Shown piece after piece: positions 32,892-48,307 of a DNA stretch of 64,000 nucleotides; the stretch's first letter is position 1; each line of letters starts with the position of its first letter. The notes under the pieces were generated by a model. The model had not been told where the DNA came from. It searched no databases and saw nothing but the letters and a program-made list of their open reading frames with translations. The stretch covers positions 62,001 through 126,000 of the forward strand of contig NZ_LMDI01000075.1 in the NCBI RefSeq assembly GCF_001425785.1, given 5' to 3'. The DNA is from Rhizobacter sp. Root1221 (GTDB lineage: Bacteria > Pseudomonadota > Gammaproteobacteria > Burkholderiales > Burkholderiaceae_C). The position numbers were made by a program, and so were the translations under genes.

Positions 32892-34588
32892 CCGCGCCCG
32901 CGTTGCAGGCACTCGCCCCCGGCCTCTGGCCCCACCTGATCGTCGCCCCGCTGCTGCTGCCCATGCTGACTGCGGCCGCGATGCTGCTGCTCGGTGAAAA
33001 ACGCCGCCGGATCAAGGGCTGGGTCAACATCGCCTCCACGTTCACCGGTCTCGTGATGGCCGTGATGCTGCTGCGCTGGGTGGACCGGCACGGCGTGCCC
33101 GGCGTGGTGGGCGTGTACCTGCCATCGAACTGGGACGTGCCCTACGGCATCGTGCTCGCGGCCGACCGCCTGAGCGCGCTGATGCTCGTGCTGGCCGGCA
33201 TCGTGGCACTCGGTGCGCTGCTGTTCGCGGTGGCACGCTGGGACCGCGCCGGCGTGCACTTCCACCCGCTCTTCCAGATCCAGCTGATGGGCCTGTACGG
33301 GGCATTCCTGACCGCCGACCTGTTCAACCTCTTCGTGTTTTTCGAGGTGATGCTCGCCGCGTCGTACGGGCTGATGCTGCACGGTTCGGGCCGGCAGCGG
33401 GTCAGCGCCGGGCTGCACTACGTGGCCATCAACCTCGTCGCGTCATCGTTCTTCCTCATCGGCGCGGCCATGATCTACGGGGTCACCGGCACGCTGAACT
33501 TCGCCGACCTCGCGGTCAAGATCCCGCACATCCCCGCCGACGACCGCGGCCTGCTGCACGCAGGCGCGGCCATCCTCGCCACCGCGTTCCTCGCCAAGGC
33601 CGCCATGTGGCCCATGAACGCGTGGCTCGAGCCGGCCTACTCCGCCGCCAGTGCGCCGGTGGCCGGCCTCTTTGCCATCATGACCAAGGTGGGCGTGTAT
33701 GCGGTGCTGCGGCTGTGGACACTGCTGTTCTCCGACCAGGCCGGTGCGTCGGCCCAGTTCGGCGGCCCGTGGCTCGTGGTGGGCGGGCTCGTCACCGTCG
33801 CGTTCGGCTCGCTGGGCATGCTGGGGGCGAAACGCCTGGCCCGGCTCGCGAGCTTCAGCGTGCTCATTTCCTCGGGCACGCTGCTCGCGGCCATCGGCTT
33901 CGGCCGCCCGGCCCTCACCGGCGGTGCGCTGTATTACCTCGCCAGTTCCACGCTGTCCGTGAGCGCCTTTTTCCTGCTCGCCGAACTCGTGGAACGCTCG
34001 CGTGTGGCCGCCGGCGACAAACCGGAGGGCGACACGGTGCCAGGCCGGCTCGACGACGGGGAGTCCAACTTCGACAGCCGCCTCGGTGCCAACCTCGACG
34101 AAGAGGAGGAACTGCTGATCGGCCGGGCCATCCCCGCCGCCATGGCCTTCCTGGGCCTGAGTTTCATCGCCTGCACGCTGCTGTTGAGCGGAATGCCGCC
34201 GCTGTCGGGTTTCATCGGCAAGCTGGCCATCCTCACCGCGGTGCTGGACCCGCTCGACGGCCCCACGGTGCCGCGCTCGGCCTGGGCGCTCGTGGCGTTG
34301 ATGGTGGGCTCCGGGCTCGTGTCGATGATCGCGTTGTCGCGTGCCGGCATCCGCCACTTCTGGGCCCCGCAGGACCGTCCGGCACCGCGCCTGCGCGTGA
34401 TCGAATGCCTGCCCATCGGGTTGCTCGTGCTCGCCTGCTGCGCGCTGGTGGTGAACGGTGACGCACTGGTCCGCTACGGCCGCGCCACGGCCGAATCGTT
34501 GCAACATCCCACGCCGTACATCGACGCGGTGACGACGGCCCGCCCGGCGCCGTCGCCCAGCCGCATGCCCGAGGGCATCGCACCATGA
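32888..34588 (+). CDS. mrpD: Mrp antiporter subunit D
   Basis: A 566-residue NuoN/NuoM-like membrane subunit with about 14 helices. The proton-path segments are visible as LFNLFVFFEVMLAASYGLMLHGSG (conserved glutamate, about 140-163) and AKAAMWPMNAWLEPAYSAASAPVAGLFAIMTKVGVYAVLRL (conserved lysines, about 237-277). A polar acidic insert near 375-410 (KPEGDTVPGRLDDGESNFDSR) is unusual in length. Starts inside the end of mrpC (ATGA) and overlaps mrpE similarly. Confidence 0.95.
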   Translation: MTAPALQALAPGLWPHLIVAPLLLPMLTAAAMLLLGEKRRRIKGWVNIASTFTGLVMAVMLLRWVDRHGVPGVVGVYLPSNWDVPYGIVLAADRLSALMLVLAGIVALGALLFAVARWDRAGVHFHPLFQIQLMGLYGAFLTADLFNLFVFFEVMLAASYGLMLHGSGRQRVSAGLHYVAINLVASSFFLIGAAMIYGVTGTLNFADLAVKIPHIPADDRGLLHAGAAILATAFLAKAAMWPMNAWLEPAYSAASAPVAGLFAIMTKVGVYAVLRLWTLLFSDQAGASAQFGGPWLVVGGLVTVAFGSLGMLGAKRLARLASFSVLISSGTLLAAIGFGRPALTGGALYYLASSTLSVSAFFLLAELVERSRVAAGDKPEGDTVPGRLDDGESNFDSRLGANLDEEEELLIGRAIPAAMAFLGLSFIACTLLLSGMPPLSGFIGKLAILTAVLDPLDGPTVPRSAWALVALMVGSGLVSMIALSRAGIRHFWAPQDRPAPRLRVIECLPIGLLVLACCALVVNGDALVRYGRATAESLQHPTPYIDAVTTARPAPSPSRMPEGIAP

Positions 34589-35073
34589 AACGGCTGCTCC
34601 CTGCCCCGCTGCTGTCGGTGTCGATCCTCGCGCTGTGGCTGGTGCTCAACGGCTCGCTGGGCCTCGGGCAGTGGCTGCTGGGCCTCGTGCTCGCGCTGGT
34701 GGTGCCCCTTGCCACCGCGTCGCTGCGGCCCACGCCCGCGCGCATCCGCAAGCCCTGGACGGTGGTGCGCCTGATCCTGCGCGTGGGCCGCGACGTGATC
34801 CAGTCGAACGTCGTGGTCGCCCGCGGCGTATTGCGCGCACACCGGCACCCGCCCCAGGGCACGTTCGTTCGCGTTCCCCTCGAGCTGCGCGACCCGCACG
34901 GCCTCGCCGCGCTGGCCGCCATCATGTGCGTGACCCCGGGCACCGTCTGGGCCGAGTTGTCGCTCGACCGCGGCGCGCTGCTGCTGCACGTGTTCAACCT
35001 GGACGATGAGGCCGCCTTCATCGCGCACCTCCAGACCCACTACGAGCGGCCCCTGATGGAGATCTTCGAATGA
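34585..35073 (+). CDS. mrpE: Mrp antiporter subunit E
   Basis: A 162-residue MrpE subunit. Two N-terminal helices (about 5-45) precede the cytoplasmic domain with VRLILRVGRDVIQSNVVVARGVL and the conserved AAIMCVTPGTVWAELSLDRGALLLHVFNLDDE. It is needed for assembly of the antiporter and has no counterpart in Complex I. Start and end overlap neighbours by four bases each. Confidence 0.94.
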   Translation: MKRLLPAPLLSVSILALWLVLNGSLGLGQWLLGLVLALVVPLATASLRPTPARIRKPWTVVRLILRVGRDVIQSNVVVARGVLRAHRHPPQGTFVRVPLELRDPHGLAALAAIMCVTPGTVWAELSLDRGALLLHVFNLDDEAAFIAHLQTHYERPLMEIFE

Positions 35074-35348
35074 GCCCCCTGCTCTACTGGGCCATCACGG
35101 CCGCCCTCGTGTTCCTTGCGCTCGCGATGGCGCTGGCCACCGTGCGCCTCTTCCGCGGGCCCTCCGCGCAGGACCGCGTGCTGGCGCTCGATGCGCTGTA
35201 CATCTGCGGCATGCTCGTGATGCTGGTGCTGGGCATCCGCTACGCCAGCAATGTGTTCTTCGAGGCCGCGCTGTTGATCGCGCTCTTCGGGTTCGTCGGC
35301 TCGGCGTCGATGGCCAAGTTCCTGCTGCGCGGCGAGGTGATCGAATGA
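35070..35348 (+). CDS. mrpF: Mrp antiporter subunit F
   Basis: A 92-residue three-helix subunit with the family core ATVRLFRGPSAQDRVLALDALYICGM (about 24-49) and an alanine/leucine-rich final helix ending SASMAKFLLRGEVIE. The conserved RGPSAQDRVLALD segment is diagnostic for MrpF/PhaF. Overlaps mrpE and mrpG by four bases (ATGA). Confidence 0.94.
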   Translation: MSPLLYWAITAALVFLALAMALATVRLFRGPSAQDRVLALDALYICGMLVMLVLGIRYASNVFFEAALLIALFGFVGSASMAKFLLRGEVIE

Positions 35349-35686
35349 GCGGCGCGGTGCCCCTCTGGGTCGAGGTCACCGTGGCCGTGCTGATCGTCAC
35401 TGGCGCGCTGTTCACGCTCGTGGGCACATGGGGCCTGCTGCGCCTGCCCGACTTCTTCCTGCGCATGCACGCACCGGCCCTCGGGTCCACCATCGGCGCC
35501 TGGTGCGTGGCCGCCGCGTCGGTGCTGTACTTCTCGGTGCGCGACGGCCGCCTGGTGTTCCACCCGTGGCTGATCCCCGTGTTCCTGTCGATCACCGCGC
35601 CCATCACCACGTCGCTGCTGGCGCGCACCGGGGTGTTCCGGGCGCGCGAATCAGGTGACAAGACCGTGCCGCCGCCGCTCGGTTGA
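35345..35686 (+). CDS. mrpG: Mrp antiporter subunit G
   Basis: A 113-residue last subunit. Its first helix is followed by the signature LVGTWGLLRLPDFFLRMHAPALGSTIGAWCV (about 26-56), characteristic of MrpG/PhaG, and two more helices. The C-terminus is short and polar. It closes the six-gene operon; no strong terminator is seen in the 110 bp before the next, convergent gene. Confidence 0.94.
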   Translation: MSGAVPLWVEVTVAVLIVTGALFTLVGTWGLLRLPDFFLRMHAPALGSTIGAWCVAAASVLYFSVRDGRLVFHPWLIPVFLSITAPITTSLLARTGVFRARESGDKTVPPPLG

Positions 35687-35796
35687 TCGCCACCCTCGGC
35701 ACTGTCCCCCATGCCCCAAGCAGCCGAAACGGTGACGCCTGTCCCCGCGCGGTCCCACGCGACAGCGGGGGCGGGCGCGGGGAACGAACAGCAGCG

Positions 35797-38585: not shown

Positions 38586-39494
38586 CTACGCCTTCCTGGT
38601 GGGCCGCGTGCCACGCAGGACTTCCAACGCCAGTGGCAGCGCGGGATTGGTGGACGCCGTGTGCCATGCCGCCGCGGTGGTGACCACGTCGACGGACTCG
38701 TGCAAGGGCCGCAGGACGACGTTCCCGGGCGCCAGGCGCTTCAATCCCGCGGGAACCAGGGCGATGCCCTGTCCGCAACTGACGAAAGCGACCTGGGTGG
38801 CAACGCTGCGAACCTCGTGGAGGATCCGTGGTGAGAAGCCCTGGGCCTGGCAGAGGGCCACGATGCTGTCGAAGTAGACCGGGCTGACACGACGCGCGAA
38901 CATGACGAACGACTCTTCGGTCAGGTCCTTCAGCTTGACGCGCCGCCGCAGTGCCAGCCGGTGGGTCGCCGGCAGCGCCACGGTCAACTTGTCTTCTGCC
39001 ATCGTCACCGTGGCAATCGAGCTGCCCAGTTCCCCTTGAAGCCGGGCGAACGCCAGGTCGACGTCCCCACCCTCCAGCGCAGGCAGCGCCTCGGCGCTGT
39101 CGATCTCCCGCACCGAGATCGTCAATTGCGGATGGCGGTCCCGCATGCGGTCCAGGAATGGCGGCAGCACCTCCAGCATGGCGGAAGAGATCGCGCCGAT
39201 GGTCAGCAGCCCGGTCTGGCCTGCCGTGGCTTCGCGCACCGCCAGCTCCAGCTGTTCCATCTGCTGTGCGAACTTGCGCACTGCAGGAAGGATGGTCTGC
39301 CCGAAGGGAGTGAGTTGCGCGCCTCGCCGCGAGCGGACGAACAGCTTGGCCTTCAGCGCCTGCTCGAGGATCTGGATCTGTTCGGTCAAAGGCGGCTGGG
39401 ACATGCCCAGCCGCTTTGCCGCACGGCCGAAGTGCTGTTCCTCGGCCACGGCAAGGAACAGCCACAGGTGGCGCAACAGGCGAAAGTTGATCAT
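38586..39494 (-). CDS. LysR-family transcriptional regulator of the RraA-type operon
   Basis: A 302-residue LysR regulator. HTH at about 3-60 (LRHLWLFLAVAEEQHFGRAAKRLGMSQPPLTEQIQILEQAL), effector domain 90-295 with VVLPATHRLA-like and GQGIALVPAGLKRL segments. The HTH sequence (EEQHFGRAAKRLGMSQPPLTEQI) is of the BenM/CatM/aromatic-catabolic group. It is divergent from the three RraA genes with 106 bp between, and is their likely regulator; the inducer is unknown. Confidence 0.93.
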   Translation of the reverse strand: MINFRLLRHLWLFLAVAEEQHFGRAAKRLGMSQPPLTEQIQILEQALKAKLFVRSRRGAQLTPFGQTILPAVRKFAQQMEQLELAVREATAGQTGLLTIGAISSAMLEVLPPFLDRMRDRHPQLTISVREIDSAEALPALEGGDVDLAFARLQGELGSSIATVTMAEDKLTVALPATHRLALRRRVKLKDLTEESFVMFARRVSPVYFDSIVALCQAQGFSPRILHEVRSVATQVAFVSCGQGIALVPAGLKRLAPGNVVLRPLHESVDVVTTAAAWHTASTNPALPLALEVLRGTRPTRKA

Positions 39495-39600: not shown

Positions 39601-40266
39601 ATGAAACCATCCAACCTAGACCGCCTGGAGCGCCTGGACACCACCACGGTGTCGGACGCCCTGGACTTCCTGGCCCTTCCCGGCGCCACCGTCGGCCTGC
39701 GCCCGCTCTGGCACTGCCCGAAGATCGTCGGGCGAGCCAGCACGGTCCAGCTCGGCCCCAAGGTCGGCGGCGCGCCGACCGTGCACCTGATCTCGCCGGT
39801 CATCGCGGCCATCGACACCGGCGAGCGCGTCCTCGTGATCTCCGGCGGCATCGACGGTGTCTCGTGCTGGGGAGACATCCTGGCCAATGCGGCCAGGTCC
39901 AAGCGTGTTCGCGGAACGGTGATCGATGGCTTCAGCCGGGACATCGAGGCCAACGAAGAGATCGCCTACCCGGTGTACGGCCGCGGCGCCACGATGGTCA
40001 GCGCCCGCAACCGCGTGGTGCAGTTGGCGTCGGGCACGCCCATCCTCGTCGCCGGCGTGACGGTGCGCGAGGACGACTATGTGATCGCCGACCGCTGCGG
40101 CACGGTCTTCGTCGCCGCCGATCGCATCGCCGAGGTGCTGGACCTGGCCGAGCGCATCGCGCGCCGGCAGGACGGCATGGTGCAGGCGGTGCGCTCGGGC
40201 CGATCGGTCGAGGACGTCATGCACGACAAGGAATTCGAGGCCATCAAGGCAGGAGCCACACCATGA
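39601..40266 (+). CDS. RraA/HMG-aldolase family protein 1
   Basis: A 221-residue member of the RraA / 4-hydroxy-4-methyl-2-oxoglutarate (HMG) aldolase family, which bind divalent metal and cleave or decarboxylate oxo-acids. The metal/substrate motif is intact: CWGD (89-92) and GFSRD with Arg113-Asp114. It lacks the usual NL motif in the 60s (GGAPTVHLI). First gene of a five-gene operon (three RraA-type genes, aminotransferase, hydrolase), overlapping the next by four bases. Not the E. coli RNase E inhibitor in role, as the R-D pair suggests an enzyme; substrate unknown. Confidence 0.85.
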   Translation: MKPSNLDRLERLDTTTVSDALDFLALPGATVGLRPLWHCPKIVGRASTVQLGPKVGGAPTVHLISPVIAAIDTGERVLVISGGIDGVSCWGDILANAARSKRVRGTVIDGFSRDIEANEEIAYPVYGRGATMVSARNRVVQLASGTPILVAGVTVREDDYVIADRCGTVFVAADRIAEVLDLAERIARRQDGMVQAVRSGRSVEDVMHDKEFEAIKAGATP

Positions 40267-40937
40267 ACGCGCAGCATGAAACCGATCGGGCGCTGGTCGC
40301 CCTGTTCGAGGGCCTGGACACGCCGGGCGTCTCGGACGCCATGGACAAGCTCGGCATCCCGGGGCAGTGCCTCGGCATCGCGCCGCTGGACAACTACCGC
40401 GGCACGGTCGTCGGCCCGGCGTTCACGGTCAAGTACGTGAGCTGCGGCCAACCGGCCGGAACCGTGGGGGACTTCATCGACGAGGTGGCCGAGGGCGACG
40501 TCATCGTCATCGACAACGATGCGCGCACCGACTGCACCGTCTGGGGCGACATCATGACCCAGTACGCCGGCACCAGGAAGATCGCCGCGACCGTGATCGA
40601 CGGCGTCTGCCGCGACGTGGCCAAGGCACTCGCTGACGGCTATCCGCTGTTCACGCGGGGGCGCTTCATGCGCACCGGCAAGGACCGCGTCGAGGTCGCG
40701 GCGGTCAATGAACCGGTGTCGGTGGGCACGGCGCGGGTCTGCGCCCGGGACATCGTGGTGGCGGATGCCAACGGCGTGGTGGTCGTGCCGCGCGCGCGTG
40801 CCCGCGACGTCGCCGAGGCGGCCCGCAAGATCGAAGTGATCGAGTCGGGCATCCGCGAGCAGATCGCGGCGGGCAAGACGCTGGGCGAAGCGCGCGCCGC
40901 GCTGAGCTACCACACGCTGCAAAGGAAAGGCACATGA
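40263..40937 (+). CDS. RraA/HMG-aldolase family protein 2
   Basis: A 224-residue paralogue. It begins LFEGLDTPGVSDAMDKLGIPG, has VWGD (94-96 region), GVCRD with Arg117-Asp118, and ends LGEARAALSYHTLQRKGT, which resembles the C-terminus of 4-carboxy-4-hydroxy-2-oxoadipate or oxaloacetate-acting members. It is clearly different from its neighbours in sequence, so it is not a recent tandem copy. ATG at 40263 overlaps the upstream stop; its own end overlaps the third paralogue by four bases. Confidence 0.87.
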   Translation: MNAQHETDRALVALFEGLDTPGVSDAMDKLGIPGQCLGIAPLDNYRGTVVGPAFTVKYVSCGQPAGTVGDFIDEVAEGDVIVIDNDARTDCTVWGDIMTQYAGTRKIAATVIDGVCRDVAKALADGYPLFTRGRFMRTGKDRVEVAAVNEPVSVGTARVCARDIVVADANGVVVVPRARARDVAEAARKIEVIESGIREQIAAGKTLGEARAALSYHTLQRKGT

Positions 40938-41566
40938 GCACCCACCACAAGGATGTGGCGGCCCGGGCCCTGGCCCTCGGCACGTCCACGCTCTACGAGG
41001 CCTCGGGCCTGCGTTGTTCGGTCGATCCGCTGATCCGCGCCGCCTGGCCAGGCGCCGCCATCGCTGCGCCGGCGTATCCGGTGCAATGCTCGCCCGGCGA
41101 CAACCTCGGCATCCACATCGCCATGGCGCGCGCGCCGCGTGGCAGCGTGCTCGTGGTGGGCACCGGTGACTTCGTCGCCGGGTACTGGGGCGAGGTGCTC
41201 ACCGTGGCGGCCGAGGCCGCGGGTCTTGCAGGCCTCGTGATCGACGGCGGTGTGCGCGACGTGGCGGCGCTCGCGCGGCGCCGGTTCCCGGTGTTCACGC
41301 GGGGCGTCTCGGTGCGTGGCACCGTGAAGGCCAGCGCGCACTCCATCGGCCAGCCGATCCCCTTCACAGGCGTCACCGTCGCGGCCGGTGACCTGGTGGT
41401 GGCCGATGACGATGGTGTCATCGTCCTGCCCGCAGCCGACGTGGAGCGGACCCTGGCCGCCGGCGAAGCACGTGCCGCCAAGGAGGCCGAGATGATGAAG
41501 CGGCTCGCCGCAGGGGCCACGACCCTCGACCTGCTGGGCCTCTCGCAGTGGAGGGACGGCGAATGA
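40934..41566 (+). CDS. RraA/HMG-aldolase family protein 3
   Basis: A 210-residue third paralogue, closest to the canonical 4-hydroxy-4-methyl-2-oxoglutarate / 4-carboxy-4-hydroxy-2-oxoadipate aldolase form: PGDNLGIHIAMARAPRGSVLVVGTGDFVAGYWGEV, then GGVRD (Arg108-Asp109) and AAGDLVVADDDGVIVLP. These are the residues that bind Mg and pyruvate in characterised aldolases, so cleavage to pyruvate is plausible. The aminotransferase ATG overlaps its stop. Confidence 0.9.
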   Translation: MSTHHKDVAARALALGTSTLYEASGLRCSVDPLIRAAWPGAAIAAPAYPVQCSPGDNLGIHIAMARAPRGSVLVVGTGDFVAGYWGEVLTVAAEAAGLAGLVIDGGVRDVAALARRRFPVFTRGVSVRGTVKASAHSIGQPIPFTGVTVAAGDLVVADDDGVIVLPAADVERTLAAGEARAAKEAEMMKRLAAGATTLDLLGLSQWRDGE

Positions 41567-42780
41567 ACGGCGATCTGCAGCGCTTGAACGCCCACCTGGC
41601 CGCAGCCAAGCCTTCGGCCACCTACCGCATGATCGACCGGGTGGCCGAGCACCGGGCGGCCGGCGCGAAGGTGATCTCGCTGTCCGCCGGCGAACCCGAC
41701 TTCGACACACCCACGCATGTGCGCGAAGCGGCGATCGCGGCAATCCAGGCCGGCCACACGCGCTACACCCAGGTGGCGGGCATGCGCGCGCTGCGCGAGG
41801 CGGTGGCGCAGAAGTACCGGCGCGAGAACGGCCTGGCGGTCTCCTGGCAGGACACGATCGTGTGCAGCGGCGGCAAGCAGGTGCTGTACAACGCGCTGGC
41901 CGCGACGCTGAACGAGGGCGACGAAGTCATCATCCCCGCGCCGTACTGGGTCAGCTACCCCGAGATGGTGCAGCTGACGGGTGCCACGCCGGTGATCGTG
42001 CACTGCGGCGAGACGGACGGCTTCAAGCTGACGCCCCGGGCACTGGCAGACGCCATCACGCCTCGCACGCGATGGCTGATCCTGAACTCACCGTCCAACC
42101 CGACCGGCGCGGTGTATTCCGCCGGCGAACTGCGGGCGCTGGCCGATGTGTTGCTCGACCACCCCCACGTGCTCGTGCTGTCGGACGACATCTACGAGCA
42201 CCTGATCTTCGACGGCGCCGCGTTCCACACCATGGCGCAGGTCGAACCCCGGCTGGGCGAACGCACGCTGACGATGAACGGCGTGTCCAAGGCTTATGCG
42301 ATGACCGGGTGGCGCATCGGCTTCGGGACCGGCCCGCGCTGGCTGCTCGATGCGATGGAGAAGCTGCAGAGCCAGCAGACCTCGGGCGCTTGTTCGATCT
42401 CGCAGCATGCTGCACTAGCGGCCTTGAACGGGCCGCAGCAGTTCGTGGGCGATACGCGCGCCGTCTTCGAGCGCCGGCGCGACGCGATGGTGCGCATGCT
42501 CAACGAGACCCCAGGACTGCGCTGCGCGCCGCCCGCGGGTGCGTTCTACGCATTCGCTTCGTGCGAAGGGCTGATGGGCCGCACCACGAGGGCGGGAACC
42601 CGGCTGAACACCGACGAGGATGTCGCACTGGCGCTCCTCGGCGAAGCCGGCGTGGCGGTTGTCCAGGGCAGTGCCTTCGGACTCGGGCCGTACATCCGGA
42701 TTGCCTACGCCCTCGACGACCGATCGCTCGTGCAGGCCTGCGAGGCGATCCGGGACTTCTGCAGCGCCACGCGTCCTTGA
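41563..42780 (+). CDS. Class I/II pyridoxal-phosphate aminotransferase
   Basis: A 405-residue fold-type I aminotransferase of the aspartate aminotransferase subgroup. Visible are SAGEPDFDTP (41-50), SGGKQVLYN, NSPSNPTGAVY (175-185), SDDIYEHL and the PLP-binding lysine 243 in NGVSKAYAMTGWRIGFG, which is the highly conserved family motif. In the operon it probably converts an amino acid into the oxo-acid used by the RraA-type enzymes, or the reverse. Overlaps the third RraA gene by four bases. Confidence 0.93.
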   Translation: MNGDLQRLNAHLAAAKPSATYRMIDRVAEHRAAGAKVISLSAGEPDFDTPTHVREAAIAAIQAGHTRYTQVAGMRALREAVAQKYRRENGLAVSWQDTIVCSGGKQVLYNALAATLNEGDEVIIPAPYWVSYPEMVQLTGATPVIVHCGETDGFKLTPRALADAITPRTRWLILNSPSNPTGAVYSAGELRALADVLLDHPHVLVLSDDIYEHLIFDGAAFHTMAQVEPRLGERTLTMNGVSKAYAMTGWRIGFGTGPRWLLDAMEKLQSQQTSGACSISQHAALAALNGPQQFVGDTRAVFERRRDAMVRMLNETPGLRCAPPAGAFYAFASCEGLMGRTTRAGTRLNTDEDVALALLGEAGVAVVQGSAFGLGPYIRIAYALDDRSLVQACEAIRDFCSATRP

Positions 42781-42799: not shown

Positions 42800-43660
42800 A
42801 TGGCCAACGAATTCACACGATCCGCGATCGCACTCGACGTGCAGGGCGTGCCGGTCGACGTCGCGGCGATCCACCGCCCCGGACACCTCGAACCGATCGT
42901 GTTCCTGCACGGCTTCGGTTCGACGAAGGAGGACTATGCCGACATCGTCCGCCACGCGGACTTCGACGGGCACCCTTTCCTGGCGTACGACGCCCCGGGG
43001 TGCGGTGAGTCAGGCTGCGCTGACCTGTCGCAGGTGTCGATCCCGTTCCTCGTTGAAACAGCACTCACTGTCCTTGGTTCGATGGGCATCGAGCGCTTCC
43101 ACCTGGTCGGTCATTCCATGGGCGGCCTCACCGCGTTGATGCTCGCCAACGCGCATCCGGACCGGGTGCTGAGCTTCGTGGACATCGAGGGCAATCTCGC
43201 GCCCGAGGACTGTTTCCTCAGCCGCCAGATCACCCTGTACCCCGAGGCGGACGCCGGGCGCTTCTTCGACGACTTCATCGAGCGCACGCGCCACGCGCCT
43301 GCCTATGCCAGTGCCTTGTACGCGGCCAGCCTGCGTCACAAGGTCCGCGCCGCGGCAGTGCGCGGCATCTTCGAGTCGATGGTGCAGCTCTCCGACCACG
43401 GCAACCTGATGGACCGCTTTCTGGGCCTGCCGTGCCGCAAGATGTTCATGTTCGGCGAGCAGAACGCGACCCTCTCCTACCTCAGGCATATCCAGACCCG
43501 CGGCGTGCAGCTGTCGGAGATCCCCCGTTGCGGGCACTTTCCGATGTACTCGAATCCGGCTGTGATGTGGACGGAAATCTCGCGCTTCCTGTCGGCCCGG
43601 CCGGTCGAGGGGACCCGATCGTCAGCTTGCCCGCCCGACGGGATTCCGCCGTCGGGGTGA
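42800..43660 (+). CDS. Alpha/beta-fold hydrolase
   Basis: A 286-residue hydrolase. HGFGSTKEDY (37-46) is the oxyanion-hole region, GHSMGG the nucleophile elbow (Ser106), and RCGHFPMYSNP holds the catalytic histidine near 254. It has no signal peptide. The substrate could be an ester, amide or ring-opened C-C bond compound in the pathway served by the three RraA-type enzymes. Its stop lies one base from the stop of the convergent receptor gene, leaving no room for a terminator. Confidence 0.9.
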   Translation: MANEFTRSAIALDVQGVPVDVAAIHRPGHLEPIVFLHGFGSTKEDYADIVRHADFDGHPFLAYDAPGCGESGCADLSQVSIPFLVETALTVLGSMGIERFHLVGHSMGGLTALMLANAHPDRVLSFVDIEGNLAPEDCFLSRQITLYPEADAGRFFDDFIERTRHAPAYASALYAASLRHKVRAAAVRGIFESMVQLSDHGNLMDRFLGLPCRKMFMFGEQNATLSYLRHIQTRGVQLSEIPRCGHFPMYSNPAVMWTEISRFLSARPVEGTRSSACPPDGIPPSG

Positions 43661-43661
43661 T

Positions 43662-44633
43662 TCAGTCAGCCTGGATCTTCGCCGCCTTGACCACCTGCGA
43701 CCAGCGTGCAAGCTCGGCGGTGCTGTGGTCGGCCAGTTGCTGCGGGCTCATGAAGTCCGCCGAGGCGCCCAGCTCGGTCGCCTTCTGCTTGAATGCCGGC
43801 GTTGCCATCAACCTGGCGATCTCGGCCGACAGCTTGTCGATGACAGGCTTGGGTGTCTTGGCCGGCGCGAACACGGCAAACCAGGAGGTGGCGTCCAGCT
43901 TGGGCAGGCCGGCTTCGGCCGCGGTGGGCACGGTGGGCAGTGACGCCACACGCGCTGCCCCGGTCACCGCCAGGGCCCGCAACTTGCCCGATTGGATGAA
44001 GGGCATGAACGGCGGCGGCGTGCCGAACGTGAGGTCGACTTGGGCGCCCAGCAAGTCCTGCAGCGCGGGCCCGGTGCCCTTGTACGGAACGTGTGTCATG
44101 GCCACACCAGCCTGCTGCTCCAGCATCGCACCGGTCACGTGCTGCAGGGAGCCGTTTCCGGAAGAAGCGTAGGTCAGCTTGCCCGGGTTCGCCTTGGCGT
44201 AGGCAATCAGGTCAGCCAGCGTCTTCACAGGCAGGCCTTCGCGGACCACGATCACCTGCGGCGCGCTGAGGACGTTCGCCACGGCCTGGAAATCCTTGGC
44301 TTCCCATGGCGAGTTCTTGACCACATGGGGCGTGATGACGTGGTAACCCGAGTACTGCATCAGCAGCGTGTATCCGTCCGGCTCGGCGCGTTTGACCACG
44401 CTCGCGGCGATGCCACCGCTGGCGCCTGCGCGATTGTCAACGACCACCGTCTGCCCAAGCGCTTTCCCGAGCGGCTCGGCCAGCATCCGGGCGGCGATGT
44501 CGGTCGTTCCACCCGGGGCACTGGACACGATCAGCGTGATCGGCTTGTTCGGGTAGTCACCCTGTGCGATGGCGCCGCCGGTACAAGCGCCCAGGAGGGT
44601 CAGGAGAATCTGGCGGCGTTGGAAGTTCAGCAT
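43662..44633 (-). CDS. Bug-family (TctC) periplasmic solute-binding protein
   Basis: A 323-residue tripartite tricarboxylate receptor. The export signal (about 1-23, LLTLLGACTGGAIAQ) is followed by DYPNKPITLIVSSAPGGTTDIAARMLAEPLGKALGQTVVVDNRAGASGGIAA, the Bug signature. It binds carboxylates; no tctA/tctB genes are adjacent, as is common for Bug proteins. It belongs to the five-gene minus operon and probably delivers that pathway's substrate. Confidence 0.93.
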   Translation of the reverse strand: MLNFQRRQILLTLLGACTGGAIAQGDYPNKPITLIVSSAPGGTTDIAARMLAEPLGKALGQTVVVDNRAGASGGIAASVVKRAEPDGYTLLMQYSGYHVITPHVVKNSPWEAKDFQAVANVLSAPQVIVVREGLPVKTLADLIAYAKANPGKLTYASSGNGSLQHVTGAMLEQQAGVAMTHVPYKGTGPALQDLLGAQVDLTFGTPPPFMPFIQSGKLRALAVTGAARVASLPTVPTAAEAGLPKLDATSWFAVFAPAKTPKPVIDKLSAEIARLMATPAFKQKATELGASADFMSPQQLADHSTAELARWSQVVKAAKIQAD

Positions 44634-44685
44634 GATCAGGTTCTTTCGATGGGTTTCAAACGAGGGGCTCGTGGTGCCAGTTGCG

Positions 44686-45639
44686 TCAGGCGCCGGCGTG
44701 ACGTTTCGCGAGGTGCTGCTCGACGATGCCTTCGACCTTCGATGCCAGGTTCGCCTGGGCAGACTCGCTGGCCCAGGCGACGTGCGGCGTCACCAGCAAG
44801 TTCGGAACGTCCCCGGCGAGCAGCGGGTGCGAGGACGGCGGAGGTTCTGTGTCCAGGACGTCGATGGCCGCGCCGCCCAGTTGTCCGCACCGCAGGGCCC
44901 GGATCAGTGCGTCCGCATCCACCAGGGCACCCCGACCCGTGTTGATCAGGGTCGCCGTCGGTTTCATCAAGGCCAGGCGGCGCGCGTCGATCAGGTGGTG
45001 GGTCTGCGGCGTCAACGGCACATGGAGCGTCACCGCGTCCGCCTCGCCGAGAAGGACGTCGAGCTCGCGTTCGTCGTCCGCGGCGGGCCGGCCGGGCGAC
45101 CGGGCGTACAGCACGGTCATGCCCAGGCCGCGGGCAAGCCGGGCGGTGGCTTCGCCGATGCGGCCGCGGCCAACCACGCCGAGCACCGTGCCGCCCACGC
45201 TGCGGATGGCCGGCCCATGCCAGCAGAAGTGGGTCGACCTGGACCACCGGCCATCGGTGGCCGCCTGCGCGTAAGCCGCCAGCGAACGCCGCGCCATCAG
45301 CAGCGTGGCGATCACGTGCTCGGCCACCGAATCCGTGCCGTAGTCAGGCACGTTCCGCACGGCGATACCCAGCGCCTTCGCCGCCTCGAGGTCGACGTTG
45401 TCGGTGCCCGCCGCGGACACCACCACGAGCTTCAACCGCGGTGCCTCGCGAAGCTGTTGTCCGGTCAGCCGAATCTTGTTGGTGATGACAACATCTGCCC
45501 GGGCGATGCGCTCGGCCACCCGGTCCGCGGGCGTGGTGTCGTGCGGCTCGTAGACGACCTGCGCGGACGCCGCGAACGTCAGCGGCAGGGGAAGGCTGCC
45601 GGCATCGAGGAAAACAACGACCGTGGAGGGCGTGCTCAT
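44686..45639 (-). CDS. D-2-hydroxyacid dehydrogenase
   Basis: A 317-residue NAD(P)-dependent dehydrogenase that interconverts 2-hydroxy and 2-oxo acids. The dinucleotide motif GVVGRGRIGEATARLARGLGM (about 152-172), arginine in INTGRGALVD, glutamate in VLDTEP and histidine in TPHVAWASE form the family catalytic set. Substrate is likely a carboxylate related to the neighbouring lyase route. ATG at 45639 overlaps the VOC gene stop by four bases. Confidence 0.92.
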   Translation of the reverse strand: MSTPSTVVVFLDAGSLPLPLTFAASAQVVYEPHDTTPADRVAERIARADVVITNKIRLTGQQLREAPRLKLVVVSAAGTDNVDLEAAKALGIAVRNVPDYGTDSVAEHVIATLLMARRSLAAYAQAATDGRWSRSTHFCWHGPAIRSVGGTVLGVVGRGRIGEATARLARGLGMTVLYARSPGRPAADDERELDVLLGEADAVTLHVPLTPQTHHLIDARRLALMKPTATLINTGRGALVDADALIRALRCGQLGGAAIDVLDTEPPPSSHPLLAGDVPNLLVTPHVAWASESAQANLASKVEGIVEQHLAKRHAGA

Positions 45640-46031
45640 GGTGCCGGCTCCGAGATCTCGATGAGGTTCAGGTCGGGGTCCCGAACGTACACCGAGCGGA
45701 TCTTCGACGTGGCCCCCGTTCGCATCACCGGCCCCTCGACGATGGGAACGCAGCGCGTGCGGAGCCGCTCGACCACCGCGTCCAACGGCACGGCCGCGAT
45801 GAAGCAGAGGTCCAGGGCGCCCGGCACCGGCGTGTGCGCCTTCGGGTCGAACTCGCGGCCTTTGACGTGCAGGTTGATCTTCTGGTGGCCGAACCTGAAG
45901 GCCTTGCGCTCCACGGGCGGCGTTCCGCCCACGAAGGATTCGAGTTGCATGCCCAACACCTCGGTGTAGAAGCGCACGCAGGCGGCTTCGTGCGAGGTCG
46001 TGAGCACGAGGTGGTCCAGGTGGTCGATCAT
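45636..46031 (-). CDS. VOC-superfamily protein
   Basis: A 131-residue single-domain glyoxalase/bleomycin-resistance/dioxygenase protein: IDHLDHLVLTTSHEAACVRFYTEVLGM at the N-terminus gives the first metal histidine, and DPDLNLIEISEP at the end gives the metal glutamate. It may act as a small lyase, isomerase or epimerase on a pathway intermediate. It overlaps both neighbours by four bases, so tightly co-translated. Confidence 0.88.
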   Translation of the reverse strand: MIDHLDHLVLTTSHEAACVRFYTEVLGMQLESFVGGTPPVERKAFRFGHQKINLHVKGREFDPKAHTPVPGALDLCFIAAVPLDAVVERLRTRCVPIVEGPVMRTGATSKIRSVYVRDPDLNLIEISEPAP

Positions 46032-47020
46032 GTCGGGCTCCCTTGCGCCCTTTGTGCGTCACGCGCGAGCGCACGTTCGCGGATCGCGTCGAAACCGTCG
46101 GGCGGGGCGTGCCGCCTGAGCCGCTCCCCGGCGCGGGAAACCTGGGAGGGCACGTCATGGCCGATCAGCTCGGCCAATCGATGGGCCGCCTGCACGAGAC
46201 CCGGGAGAGACAGGCCGGTGTCGTAGCCCATGCACGCCAGCATGTGCACCACGTCCTCCGTGGCCACATTGCCCGATGCCCCTGGGGCGTAGGGGCAGCC
46301 GCCGATGCCCCCCAGCGACATGTCGAACTGCCGGACGCCAGCCTCGACCGCCGCGACCGTGTTGACCAGGCCCATCGCCCGCGTGTTGTGGAAGTGGGCG
46401 GTGAAGGCCAGTGATGGCTGGCGCCGCAACGCCGTGTCGCAGACCTGTTGCACCTGCGTCGGGTAGGCCATGCCCGTCGTGTCGCACAGCGTGATGCCCT
46501 GGGCACCGGCCTCGGCGAACCGATCGATCCACCCGAGCACCCCGTCGAGCGGAACCTCGCCTTCCATGGGGCACCCGAAGACGCAGGACAGCGACACGTT
46601 GACGGGCACCCGCGAGGCTTTGGCGAGGGCCATCACGTCCAGCAGTTGCCGGAACGACTGCTCCCGCGTCATGCGCAGGTTGGCGAGGTTGTGGGTCTCG
46701 CTCGCCGACATGACGAGGTTGAACTCGCCGGTGTTGCATTCGAGGGCACGCTCCCCACCCCGCACGTTCGGCACGAGGGCCGTGTACACGACACCGGGGA
46801 CACGCTCGATGCGGTGCATGACCGCCTCGGCGTCCCGCAAGGCGGGGATGGCCTGGGGCGACGTGAACGACGTGACCTCGATCTTCGCGTAGCCCAGGCG
46901 GCTCAATGCGTCCACCAGCGCCACTTTGTCATCGGTCTCGACGAATCGGCATTCCGCCTGCAACCCGTCGCGGGTTCCCACTTCGTTGATGGCGAGCCTG
47001 AGCCCGTTGCCTGTTTGCAT
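46028..47020 (-). CDS. HMG-CoA lyase-family enzyme
   Basis: A 330-residue (beta/alpha)8 lyase of the hydroxymethylglutaryl-CoA lyase family (DRE-TIM). NEVGTRDGLQ (Arg17-Asp18), TAHFHNTRAMGL (metal histidines) and GGIGGCPYAPGASGNVATED (catalytic cysteine) are all intact, so it is probably active, cleaving a 3-hydroxy-3-methyl-acyl-CoA to a ketoacid and acyl-CoA. It lies 22 bp after the CaiB gene and is translated with the VOC gene. True substrate may be HMG-CoA or a related branched compound. Confidence 0.92.
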   Translation of the reverse strand: MQTGNGLRLAINEVGTRDGLQAECRFVETDDKVALVDALSRLGYAKIEVTSFTSPQAIPALRDAEAVMHRIERVPGVVYTALVPNVRGGERALECNTGEFNLVMSASETHNLANLRMTREQSFRQLLDVMALAKASRVPVNVSLSCVFGCPMEGEVPLDGVLGWIDRFAEAGAQGITLCDTTGMAYPTQVQQVCDTALRRQPSLAFTAHFHNTRAMGLVNTVAAVEAGVRQFDMSLGGIGGCPYAPGASGNVATEDVVHMLACMGYDTGLSLPGLVQAAHRLAELIGHDVPSQVSRAGERLRRHAPPDGFDAIRERALARDAQRAQGSPT

Positions 47021-47042
47021 GAGAGTTCCTTGTCAGATGGCA

Positions 47043-48200
47043 TCAACCGCGCACGGGCCATCCCCGTGCGGAGACGACTTCGGCGTTGTGCTGGCCCAGG
47101 CGCGGCGCGGGGTGCGCGATCCGCCCCGGGGTGGCGCTCAACTTCGGGATGATCCCCGGCACCTTCAGCACCGATCCGTCCGACGTGGTGGTCTCGACGA
47201 TCATCTCGCGGGCCTGGTACTGCGGGTCGTTGACGATGTCATCCACGGCATAGACCTTGCCAGCCGGGACGTTGGCCTGGTCGAGCACGCCGAGCACCTC
47301 ATCGAGCGGCTTCGTCACCGTCCACGCCTCGATGGCGGCATCGATCTCCTCGACCCGGGCCACGCGGCCGTCGTTGCGGGCGAGCGCGGGATCGCGCTCG
47401 AGGTCCGGGCGGCCGATGGCGGCCATGAGCCGCTTGAAGATGCTGTCGCCGTTGCCCGCGATGAGCGCGTACTTGTCGTCCGCGCAGCGGTAGGCATTGG
47501 TGGGAGCGATGCCCGGCAGCGCACTGCCGGAGCGCTCCCGCACGGCGCCGAAAGCGTCGTACTCCGGCAGCAGGCTTTCCATCACGTTGAACACGCTTTC
47601 GTAGAGGGCCACGTCGATGACCTGGCCTTCCCCACCGCGAGCGTCGCGATGGTAGAGCGCCGTCAGTACGCCGATCACCCCGTGCAGCGCAGACAGCGTG
47701 TCGCCAATGGAGATGCCGCAGCGAACCGGCACCCTGCCCGGTTCTCCCGTCAGGTGGCGCAGCCCGCCCATGGCTTCGCCGAGCACGCCGAAACCAGGCT
47801 TGTGCCGGTAGGGGCCGGTCTGTCCGTACCCGGAGATGCGAAGCATGATCAGCCGCGGATTCAGCGCGTGCAGGGTGTCCCAGCCAAGCCCCCACTTCTC
47901 GAGCGTGCCGGGTTTGAAGTTCTCGATCAGGATGTCGGCCTCGCGGGCGAGATCGAGAACCACTGACTGTCCCTCGCTGCTGCGAAGGTCCAGCGCGACG
48001 GAGCGCTTGTTGCGCGACTGGACTTCCCACCACACCGACGTGCCGTCGCGCAGCATGCGCCACTTGCGCAGCGGGTCCCCCGCCTCCTGCGGCTCGATCT
48101 TGATGACGTCCGCGCCAAACTCGGCGAGCGTCTTGCCCGCAAAGGGGCCCGCGATGAGCTGGCCCAGTTCGATGACCTTGAGTCCCTTCAGTGCTTCCAT
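47043..48200 (-). CDS. CaiB/BaiF family III CoA-transferase
   Basis: A 385-residue family III CoA-transferase that moves CoA between carboxylic acids through an aspartyl-anhydride. The N-terminus MEALKGLKVIELGQLIAGPFAGKTLAEFGADVIKIE is diagnostic, and the conserved acceptor-loop aspartate sits in GISIGDTLSALHG. It probably activates the imported acid for the HMG-CoA-lyase-type enzyme. ATG at 48200 follows GAGGAA with good spacing. First gene of the minus operon, divergent from a LysR gene. Confidence 0.93.
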   Translation of the reverse strand: MEALKGLKVIELGQLIAGPFAGKTLAEFGADVIKIEPQEAGDPLRKWRMLRDGTSVWWEVQSRNKRSVALDLRSSEGQSVVLDLAREADILIENFKPGTLEKWGLGWDTLHALNPRLIMLRISGYGQTGPYRHKPGFGVLGEAMGGLRHLTGEPGRVPVRCGISIGDTLSALHGVIGVLTALYHRDARGGEGQVIDVALYESVFNVMESLLPEYDAFGAVRERSGSALPGIAPTNAYRCADDKYALIAGNGDSIFKRLMAAIGRPDLERDPALARNDGRVARVEEIDAAIEAWTVTKPLDEVLGVLDQANVPAGKVYAVDDIVNDPQYQAREMIVETTTSDGSVLKVPGIIPKLSATPGRIAHPAPRLGQHNAEVVSARGWPVRG

Positions 48201-48307
48201 GCCGGTTCCTCGTTGCATGGAGAGACTCTAGGCGGCGCTGGCCCAGTCTGGAATTGCCGAGTGGACAACGCCCCTTCGCGTTTTGAGAAGTCCGTAGAAT
48301 TCCCCGG
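48201..48307. promoter_or_regulatory. Divergent LysR control region
   Basis: Between the CoA-transferase gene and the second LysR gene. TTGCCGAGTGGACAA (48254-48268) contains TTG/CAA arms with T-N11-A spacing, a possible LysR site. Evidence is weak. Confidence 0.35.

Follow-up and report, generated by a model that had tools for sequence, protein, structure and literature searches.

Three long-diverged RraA-like enzymes encoded by one conserved operon in Rhizobacter sp. Root1221

Genes of the operon

The window analyzed here is a 64,000-nucleotide stretch of Rhizobacter sp. Root1221 (contig NZ_LMDI01000075.1, positions 62,001 to 126,000), and coordinates given without a locus name refer to it. 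Three consecutive plus-strand genes, designated P1 (39601-40266; 221 amino acids), P2 (40263-40937; 224 amino acids), and P3 (40934-41566; 210 amino acids), encode RraA-like proteins and are followed on the same strand by a class I aminotransferase (41563-42780), for which the nearest solved structure is 6F77, “Aspartate aminotransferase A” (489 bits), and by an alpha/beta hydrolase (42800-43627). The latter, a putative lactone or ester hydrolase, accompanies the aminotransferase in most full-length relatives. A LysR-type regulator (38586-39494; PF00126 and PF03466) is encoded divergently on the minus strand, and its orthologue accompanies P1 in most related loci. The first-pass annotation had described the three RraA-like genes as overlapping by four bases; the coordinates confirm this, with ATGA junctions that join the upstream stop to the next ATG between P1 and P2, between P2 and P3, and also between P3 and the aminotransferase. 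Among relatives, in-frame starts permit the same overlap in 30 of 61 neighboring P1-P2 pairs, 29 of 50 P2-P3 pairs, and 35 of 41 P3-aminotransferase pairs.

All three proteins belong to the RraA-like superfamily, matching PF03737 (cut-off, 24.5 bits) with 101 bits for P1 (E value, 8e-29), 115 for P2 (5e-33), and 125 for P3 (4e-36). RraA-like proteins are widespread, and to our knowledge few of them have a tested reaction; they are often misannotated, in plasmid records, for example, as a menaquinone methyltransferase, an RNase regulator, or a diguanylate cyclase. The source genome carries six RraA-like genes in total. One of these, on another contig, is a true LigK (381 bits; cut-off, 304.5), so that P3, located in the operon, is an additional enzyme.

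The operon is adjoined on the minus strand (43662-48218) by genes for a TctC receptor, a 2-hydroxyacid dehydrogenase, a VOC protein, an HMG-CoA-lyase-like protein, and a CaiB-type CoA-transferase. Four of these five, all except the dehydrogenase, flank P1-aminotransferase-hydrolase in Cupriavidus (L076:1602-5258), and one or two of them also occur in 5 other loci among the best 80 of the 179 found with P1, which may indicate a linked branch for branched hydroxy acids. Farther upstream, at about 32900-35700 on the plus strand, open reading frames (ORFs) resembling subunits of Mrp/Mnh-type sodium/proton antiporters were recognized by eye.

Three long-separated lineages

The three chains are clearly divergent, as originally noted: the pairwise identities between P1, P2, and P3 are 28 to 29% in a three-way alignment, and P2 and P1 share 31% in the genome search. 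Trees were built with FastTree (290 sequences) and IQ-TREE (120 sequences). Omitted from the larger set were 22 loci that duplicated others or were represented by a longer version (none was present for one of them, L016 of G131), as well as identical proteins and matches of less than 60 bits or 140 residues. Both trees separate three lineages, with IQ-TREE UFB support of 100 for P2, 82 for P1, and 99 for P1 and P2 as sisters; P3 forms a clade with LigK and other relatives at 94, and at 87 when these are set aside. For the P1 lineage as a whole, FastTree gives a support of just 0.019. In the Burkholderiales, Polymorphobacter, and Streptosporangium triplets, the first, second, and third genes sort into the matching lineages, the placement of the Streptosporangium P2 inside its lineage being weak (65). 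In the Aminobacter locus L109, the first two genes sort likewise and the third groups with LigK. The main groups of the distant P1 and P2 subtrees branch alike, with L109 and L115 swapped.

The first-pass annotation had named two outcomes that would speak against it, namely, that the three genes branch together as a recent duplication or that two of them prove inactive and are rarely conserved with the third. Recent tandem duplication is ruled out by the tree and the low identities, and decay of one copy is ruled out by pN/pS, which is 0.12 to 0.31 for the three genes (uncorrected; 7 relatives); none of them appears to be decaying, and all three look to be under purifying selection. On the phylogenetic evidence, P1, P2, and P3 are anciently separate lineages, none of which is a recent copy of another.

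Active-site residues

Residues are numbered according to 3NOJ, the HMG/CHA aldolase of Pseudomonas putida F1 (LigK/PcmE/ProA type), with which the three proteins share a common fold. R123-D124 is invariant, at 100% in every lineage, and the Arg-Asp pairs reported in the first reading of the window (R113-D114 in P1, R117-D118 in P2, and R108-D109 in P3) are indeed present, each with an acid at the position of residue 102 (D92, D96, and E87, respectively) exactly 20 residues before the Arg. All three window proteins therefore contain D/E-X20-R-D, which we take to be the RraA-like class II aldolase motif. Thirteen distant P1 proteins have Gly102 together with Glu127, a G-X20-R-D-X2-E form that is presumably the alternative RraA-like motif. 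Most RraA-like homologues carry one of two motifs, according to the P. putida study (PMC5065237).

In the P3 core, N71, H75, G101, R123, D124, G144, T145, K147, R195, and E199 are conserved at 100% and E36 is also kept, with Glu in place of D102 and R40 replaced. P3 thus resembles 3NOJ in its metal and pyruvate residues and in most of the mutant-sensitive residues. In the same study, most mutants of the named active-site residues lose activity: the loss in kcat is about 1100-fold for N71A and K147A, 181-fold for R123K, and 18-fold for T145A, compared with about 2-fold for R195A and R40A and none for H75A (PMC5065237). The set comprising N71, T145, K147, R195, E199, and R123-D124 is complete in P3 and incomplete in P1 and P2, which differ from 3NOJ in lacking T145, K147, R195, and the N71 region. 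The first three of these residues are replaced throughout both lineages, K147 by Arg; N71 is mostly replaced, although Asn appears in some P2 rows where the alignment is poor. New residues are fixed in the pocket instead, A-R-N-R in P1 and G-K-D-R in P2 (SARNR and TGKDR, respectively, in the window proteins). The equivalent of Glu199 is kept in P2, including the window protein, and is Gln in 84 of 86 P1-core proteins, including that of the window.

Because the named active-site residues except Arg40 are kept, with Glu for Asp102, P3 is predicted to act as an HMG/CHA-type pyruvate aldolase. HMG-type cleavage would not be expected of P1 and P2, given the replacement of N71 and K147, and these two proteins should handle other 2-oxo acids. 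The initial description of all three genes as HMG/CHA aldolases probably holds for P3; it is too strong for P1 and P2, which retain just the metal/enolate core, because only P3 has the characterized residue set. Even P3 differs from 3NOJ and the LigK type in scoring under the LigK/PcmE CHA aldolase equivalog cut-offs (155.4 against 304.5 for TIGR02798 and 163.4 against 179 for NF006731), in lacking Arg40, and in having an aminotransferase neighbor; P1 and P2 score below P3 on both models.

The fold model of P2, a confident one (pLDDT, 91), was the only one submitted to a fold search, in which the nearest structures were 3K4I, then 5IR2, RraAS2, and 3NOJ; the P1 model was poor (pLDDT, 57) and was left out. 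The protein in 3K4I, PSPTO_3204, is uncharacterized; it shares 43% identity with P2 at a TM score of about 0.84 and is also the best PDB sequence match of P1.

Distribution of the trio

The first-pass annotation held that members of this family normally occur singly. This agrees with a sample of 60 family genomes, in which 137 RraA-like matches were found at an E value of 1e-10 and the directly adjacent ones were the window triplet, a P1-P2 pair in G018, and one pair in G005, with no others; in G016, an RraA-like pair is separated by about 1.3 kb containing a TctC gene. Related loci were collected with P1 as the bait, and of 179 that were confirmed, the best 80 were analyzed, such that the frequencies of P2 and P3 among them are conditional on P1. 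Presence was scored with tblastn identity cut-offs anywhere in the locus (57% for P2 and P3), and under these cut-offs, some divergent genes were scored as missing, namely, the P3-type genes near L041, L045, L047, L063, and L100 and the P2-type genes in L026 and L097. The conserved triplets that the first-pass annotation had proposed to look for do exist: all three genes are present in 51 of the 80 loci and contiguous in 48, and the P1-P2-P3 order is the same in Burkholderiales, Rhizobium, Polymorphobacter, Acinetobacter, Pseudomonas, and Streptosporangium. Among the 68 well-flanked loci of the best 80 of 179, P1, P2, and P3 occur together in 46, of which 33 have the whole LysR-P1-P2-P3-aminotransferase-hydrolase set; 13 have P1 and P2 and no P3; 4 have P1 and an aminotransferase match and no P2 orthologue; and 5 have P1 without a LysR orthologue, aminotransferase, P2, or P3. 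The aminotransferase match in L026 spans just 53 residues. P1, aminotransferase, and hydrolase form a small unit in L046 and L076. Space for another gene separates P1 from P2 in L078, L090, and L098, and is occupied by TctC in L078 and L098.

An independent check was provided by 150-genome samples of the family. Ten of the 150 genomes gave a match to P1 at 1e-20, and in G016, G087, and G131, which are among the ten, the matching genes were of the P2 type only; by tree, 8 P1-lineage genes occur in 7 of the 150, the source genome included. All 8 adjoin a P2-lineage gene, with adjacency in G069 inferred across contig ends, and 6 of the 8 have P3. At 1e-35, 11 P2-type genes were detected in 10 genomes, 3 of them without P1 (G131 was judged by identity alone). 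A class-wide search of 274 evenly drawn genomes with P1 at 1e-15 returned the source genome only, and breadth was therefore taken from wider genome contigs and plasmids. A search for the aminotransferase at 1e-150 detected it in 0 of 10 congeners and, among 60 relatives, in the source genome only; the operon is therefore patchy and may move. P1 of 60 to 80% identity was found in 14 of the 40 plasmid records having a match.

Several individual loci illustrate the range of arrangements. A 28-kb plasmid of Streptosporangium roseum (L112:7009-9930) carries LysR and the RraA trio, beside which neither an aminotransferase nor a hydrolase is annotated, and one Cupriavidus necator genome has three P1 loci (L064, L066, and L076) in three different contexts. 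A P2-type gene, a TctC receptor, and a P3-type gene, with no P1 between them, recur in L026:4615-6949, L044:11025-13387, L126, and L128. No description of the trio was found among the titles and abstract openings of literature on HMG aldolase and RraA gene clusters. The operon is real and conserved, and its three RraA-like enzymes separated long ago.

Alternative neighbor modules

Neighboring genes in relatives were clustered with a crude gene caller and grouping at 40% identity, and the names given here were assigned from Pfam or plasmid annotation that covered only part of each cluster. A PxpA-type gene occurs in 11 of 86 loci and a PxpC-type gene in 7 of 86, with a biotin carboxylase and carrier where annotated; it is possible that such a set opens a lactam. 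In L107 (1-3426) and L108 (13455-16633), genes for the biotin carboxylase and carrier, PxpA/B, and a carboxyltransferase lie beside the operon, and in L111 (3509-6048 and 13830-14597), biotin carboxylase/carrier genes and PxpA do so, suggesting biotin-dependent lactam opening by these 5-oxoprolinase-type sets.

The large subunit of aconitase X was found in 9 of 86 loci. Cupriavidus-type operons have the order aconitase X-TctC-lactonase-like-P1-P2-P3, the lactonase match being weak in L066. Aconitase X genes adjoin P1-P2(-P3) in L066, L070, L044, L085, L069, and L098, and the large and swivel pieces are separate where both were called (L085, L069, and L098). The functions of several two-piece bacterial aconitase X subtypes appear to be open, judging from the accessible part of one account (PMC8184944), and in the portions available of that text and of another on AcnX (PMC5144071), the words “RraA” and “aldolase” are absent.

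Distant P1-P2(-P3) sets resemble clusters for protocatechuate or gallate 4,5-cleavage, which we take to combine a LigB dioxygenase, a LigJ-type amidohydrolase, and the LigK aldolase. An amidohydrolase gene lies beside the distant set in 7 of 7 annotated plasmid sets examined (L109, L110, and L113 to L117), with RidA in 5 of these 7. LigB-type dioxygenases were annotated or detected in L109, L113, L115, L117, L120, and L122; none is shown in L110 or L116. The window operon, in contrast, has an aminotransferase and an alpha/beta hydrolase and neither a dioxygenase nor an amidohydrolase. Among the 86 loci, TctC receptors of one cluster are present in 22 and amino-acid permeases in 5. A Glu/Leu/Phe/Val dehydrogenase is a neighbor in the Rhizobium locus.

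Separate enzymes, heteromers, and other readings

The first-pass annotation proposed that the three proteins form a hetero-oligomer or act on three consecutive substrates. An assembly of P1 and P2, with or without P3, in which interface active sites combine residues of both paralogues would accord with their sister relationship (UFB, 99) and largely parallel distant subtrees, with the adjacency of P2 to 8 of 8 P1-lineage genes in the 150 family genomes (one inferred across contig ends), with the 4-base overlaps, and with the loss of the Glu199 equivalent from the P1 core and its retention in P2. Against it, of 14 genomes in which no P2 orthologue adjoins P1, 11 lack P2 at 1e-30, such that an obligate pairing, with P1 never found without P2, does not hold; the remaining 3 have P2 elsewhere in the genome or a divergent copy. 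Ten of the 11 P2-less genomes are metagenome assembled and one is an isolate, Paraburkholderia aspalathi (9.9 Mb), which has LysR-P1-aminotransferase-hydrolase. The P1 orthologues in these 11 show 75 to 78% identity, have open frames, and agree with other P1 proteins at each of the nine active-site positions compared; two other alignment columns separate the ten lone P1 proteins from the remaining ones, and an Ala for Gly at 127 occurs in L026, a locus outside the 11. Moreover, P2-lineage genes are also found without P1, no two-domain fusion was seen among 349 ORFs, and in a mirror-tree test on 32 loci, the P1-P2 distance correlation (0.88) is not above that of P1 and the aminotransferase (0.91). 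A compulsory heteromer is hence unlikely; in lineages that retain both genes one may form, but it is doubtful. Separate enzymes are more likely; the variable subsets (P1 with the aminotransferase, P1 and P2 with the aminotransferase, or all three) fit separable enzymes, and a possible action on three consecutive substrates is compatible with the data.

Alternatively, the three might be isofunctional pyruvate aldolases that differ in stereochemical or chain-length preference and give the operon a broad substrate range. R123-D124 and the acid at 102 in all three window proteins agree with this reading, as do the sufficiency of subsets of the trio in some genomes and the divergent P3-type genes near the operon in some loci that lack the P3 orthologue (L041, L045, L047, L063, and L100). 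However, the P1 and P2 pockets replace T145, K147, R195, and the N71 region, so that a common aldol reaction with one type of substrate cannot be taken for granted, and we consider isofunctionality rather unlikely, if a little less so than the heteromer. Far less probable still is a role of P1 and P2 as nonenzymatic regulators like Escherichia coli RraA: P2 does share its fold with RraA proteins, but the scores against the RNase E regulator RraA equivalogs are far under the cut-offs (at most 31.7 against 241 for TIGR02998 and 52.9 against 136 for NF006875), the catalytic Arg-Asp is fixed, one of the two metal motifs is kept, and the genes mostly adjoin catabolic genes.

A candidate pathway

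Our tentative reading, held at slightly less than even confidence, is that P1, P2, and P3 are separate metal-dependent enzymes of the pyruvate-enolate type in a catabolic operon, presumably LysR controlled, that degrades an amino acid of the 4-hydroxyglutamate type. The hydrolase would open the lactone or ester form of a dicarboxylic amino acid hydroxylated at position 4, for example, 4-hydroxyglutamate or 4-hydroxy-4-methylglutamate; in other loci, opening of the lactam would fall to a biotin-dependent complex of the 5-oxoprolinase type. The aspartate-aminotransferase-like enzyme would then convert the amino acid to a 4-hydroxy-2-oxo dicarboxylate, a dicarboxylic substrate being favored because the enzyme is nearest to aspartate aminotransferase A. 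P3 would cleave this 4-hydroxy-2-oxo acid by the HMG/CHA-aldolase mechanism to pyruvate and a second oxo acid. P1 and P2, with the same Arg-Asp metal/enolate core and a different carboxylate pocket, could act on other 2-oxo-acid intermediates or stereoisomers through aldol cleavage, decarboxylation, or keto-enol isomerization. The P1 reaction may lie outside the pathway, as P1 stands alone in 5 of 68 well-flanked loci.

In mammalian 4-hydroxyproline breakdown, an aspartate aminotransferase is followed by 4-hydroxy-2-oxoglutarate aldolase. The window operon would follow a similar logic, combining an aspartate-type aminotransferase with a pyruvate-forming aldolase, if its substrate is as proposed. 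It differs in being a bacterial operon, and the fold of the mammalian aldolase is presumably unrelated to that of P1 to P3.

The neighbors in relatives suggest several upstream chemistries, and therefore one fixed substrate is not demonstrated. 4-Hydroxy-2-oxo dicarboxylic acids form lactones, and we infer that a 4-hydroxy-2-oxo dicarboxylate is the compound that the varied neighbor modules could deliver. A broader proposal treats the P1-P2 pair as an old and mobile module of two RraA-fold paralogues that would catalyze an as yet undescribed step on dicarboxylates of the 4-hydroxy-2-oxo or 4-oxalo type. This module would be heteromeric where both genes are kept and would be reused with P3 behind at least four upstream chemistries (transamination, extradiol ring cleavage with an amidohydrolase, dehydration by aconitase X, and lactam opening by biotin-dependent enzymes); as a whole, we regard it as speculative and improbable.

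Returning to the reading of separate enzymes, the trio together with the aminotransferase and the hydrolase points to an undescribed breakdown route for a hydroxylated amino acid or similar acid. With its fixed order, one recognizable aldolase site, and clear neighbors, the trio makes the function of two RraA-like subfamilies directly testable, and it may help to explain the adjoining aconitase X enzymes and biotin-carboxylase/5-oxoprolinase sets.
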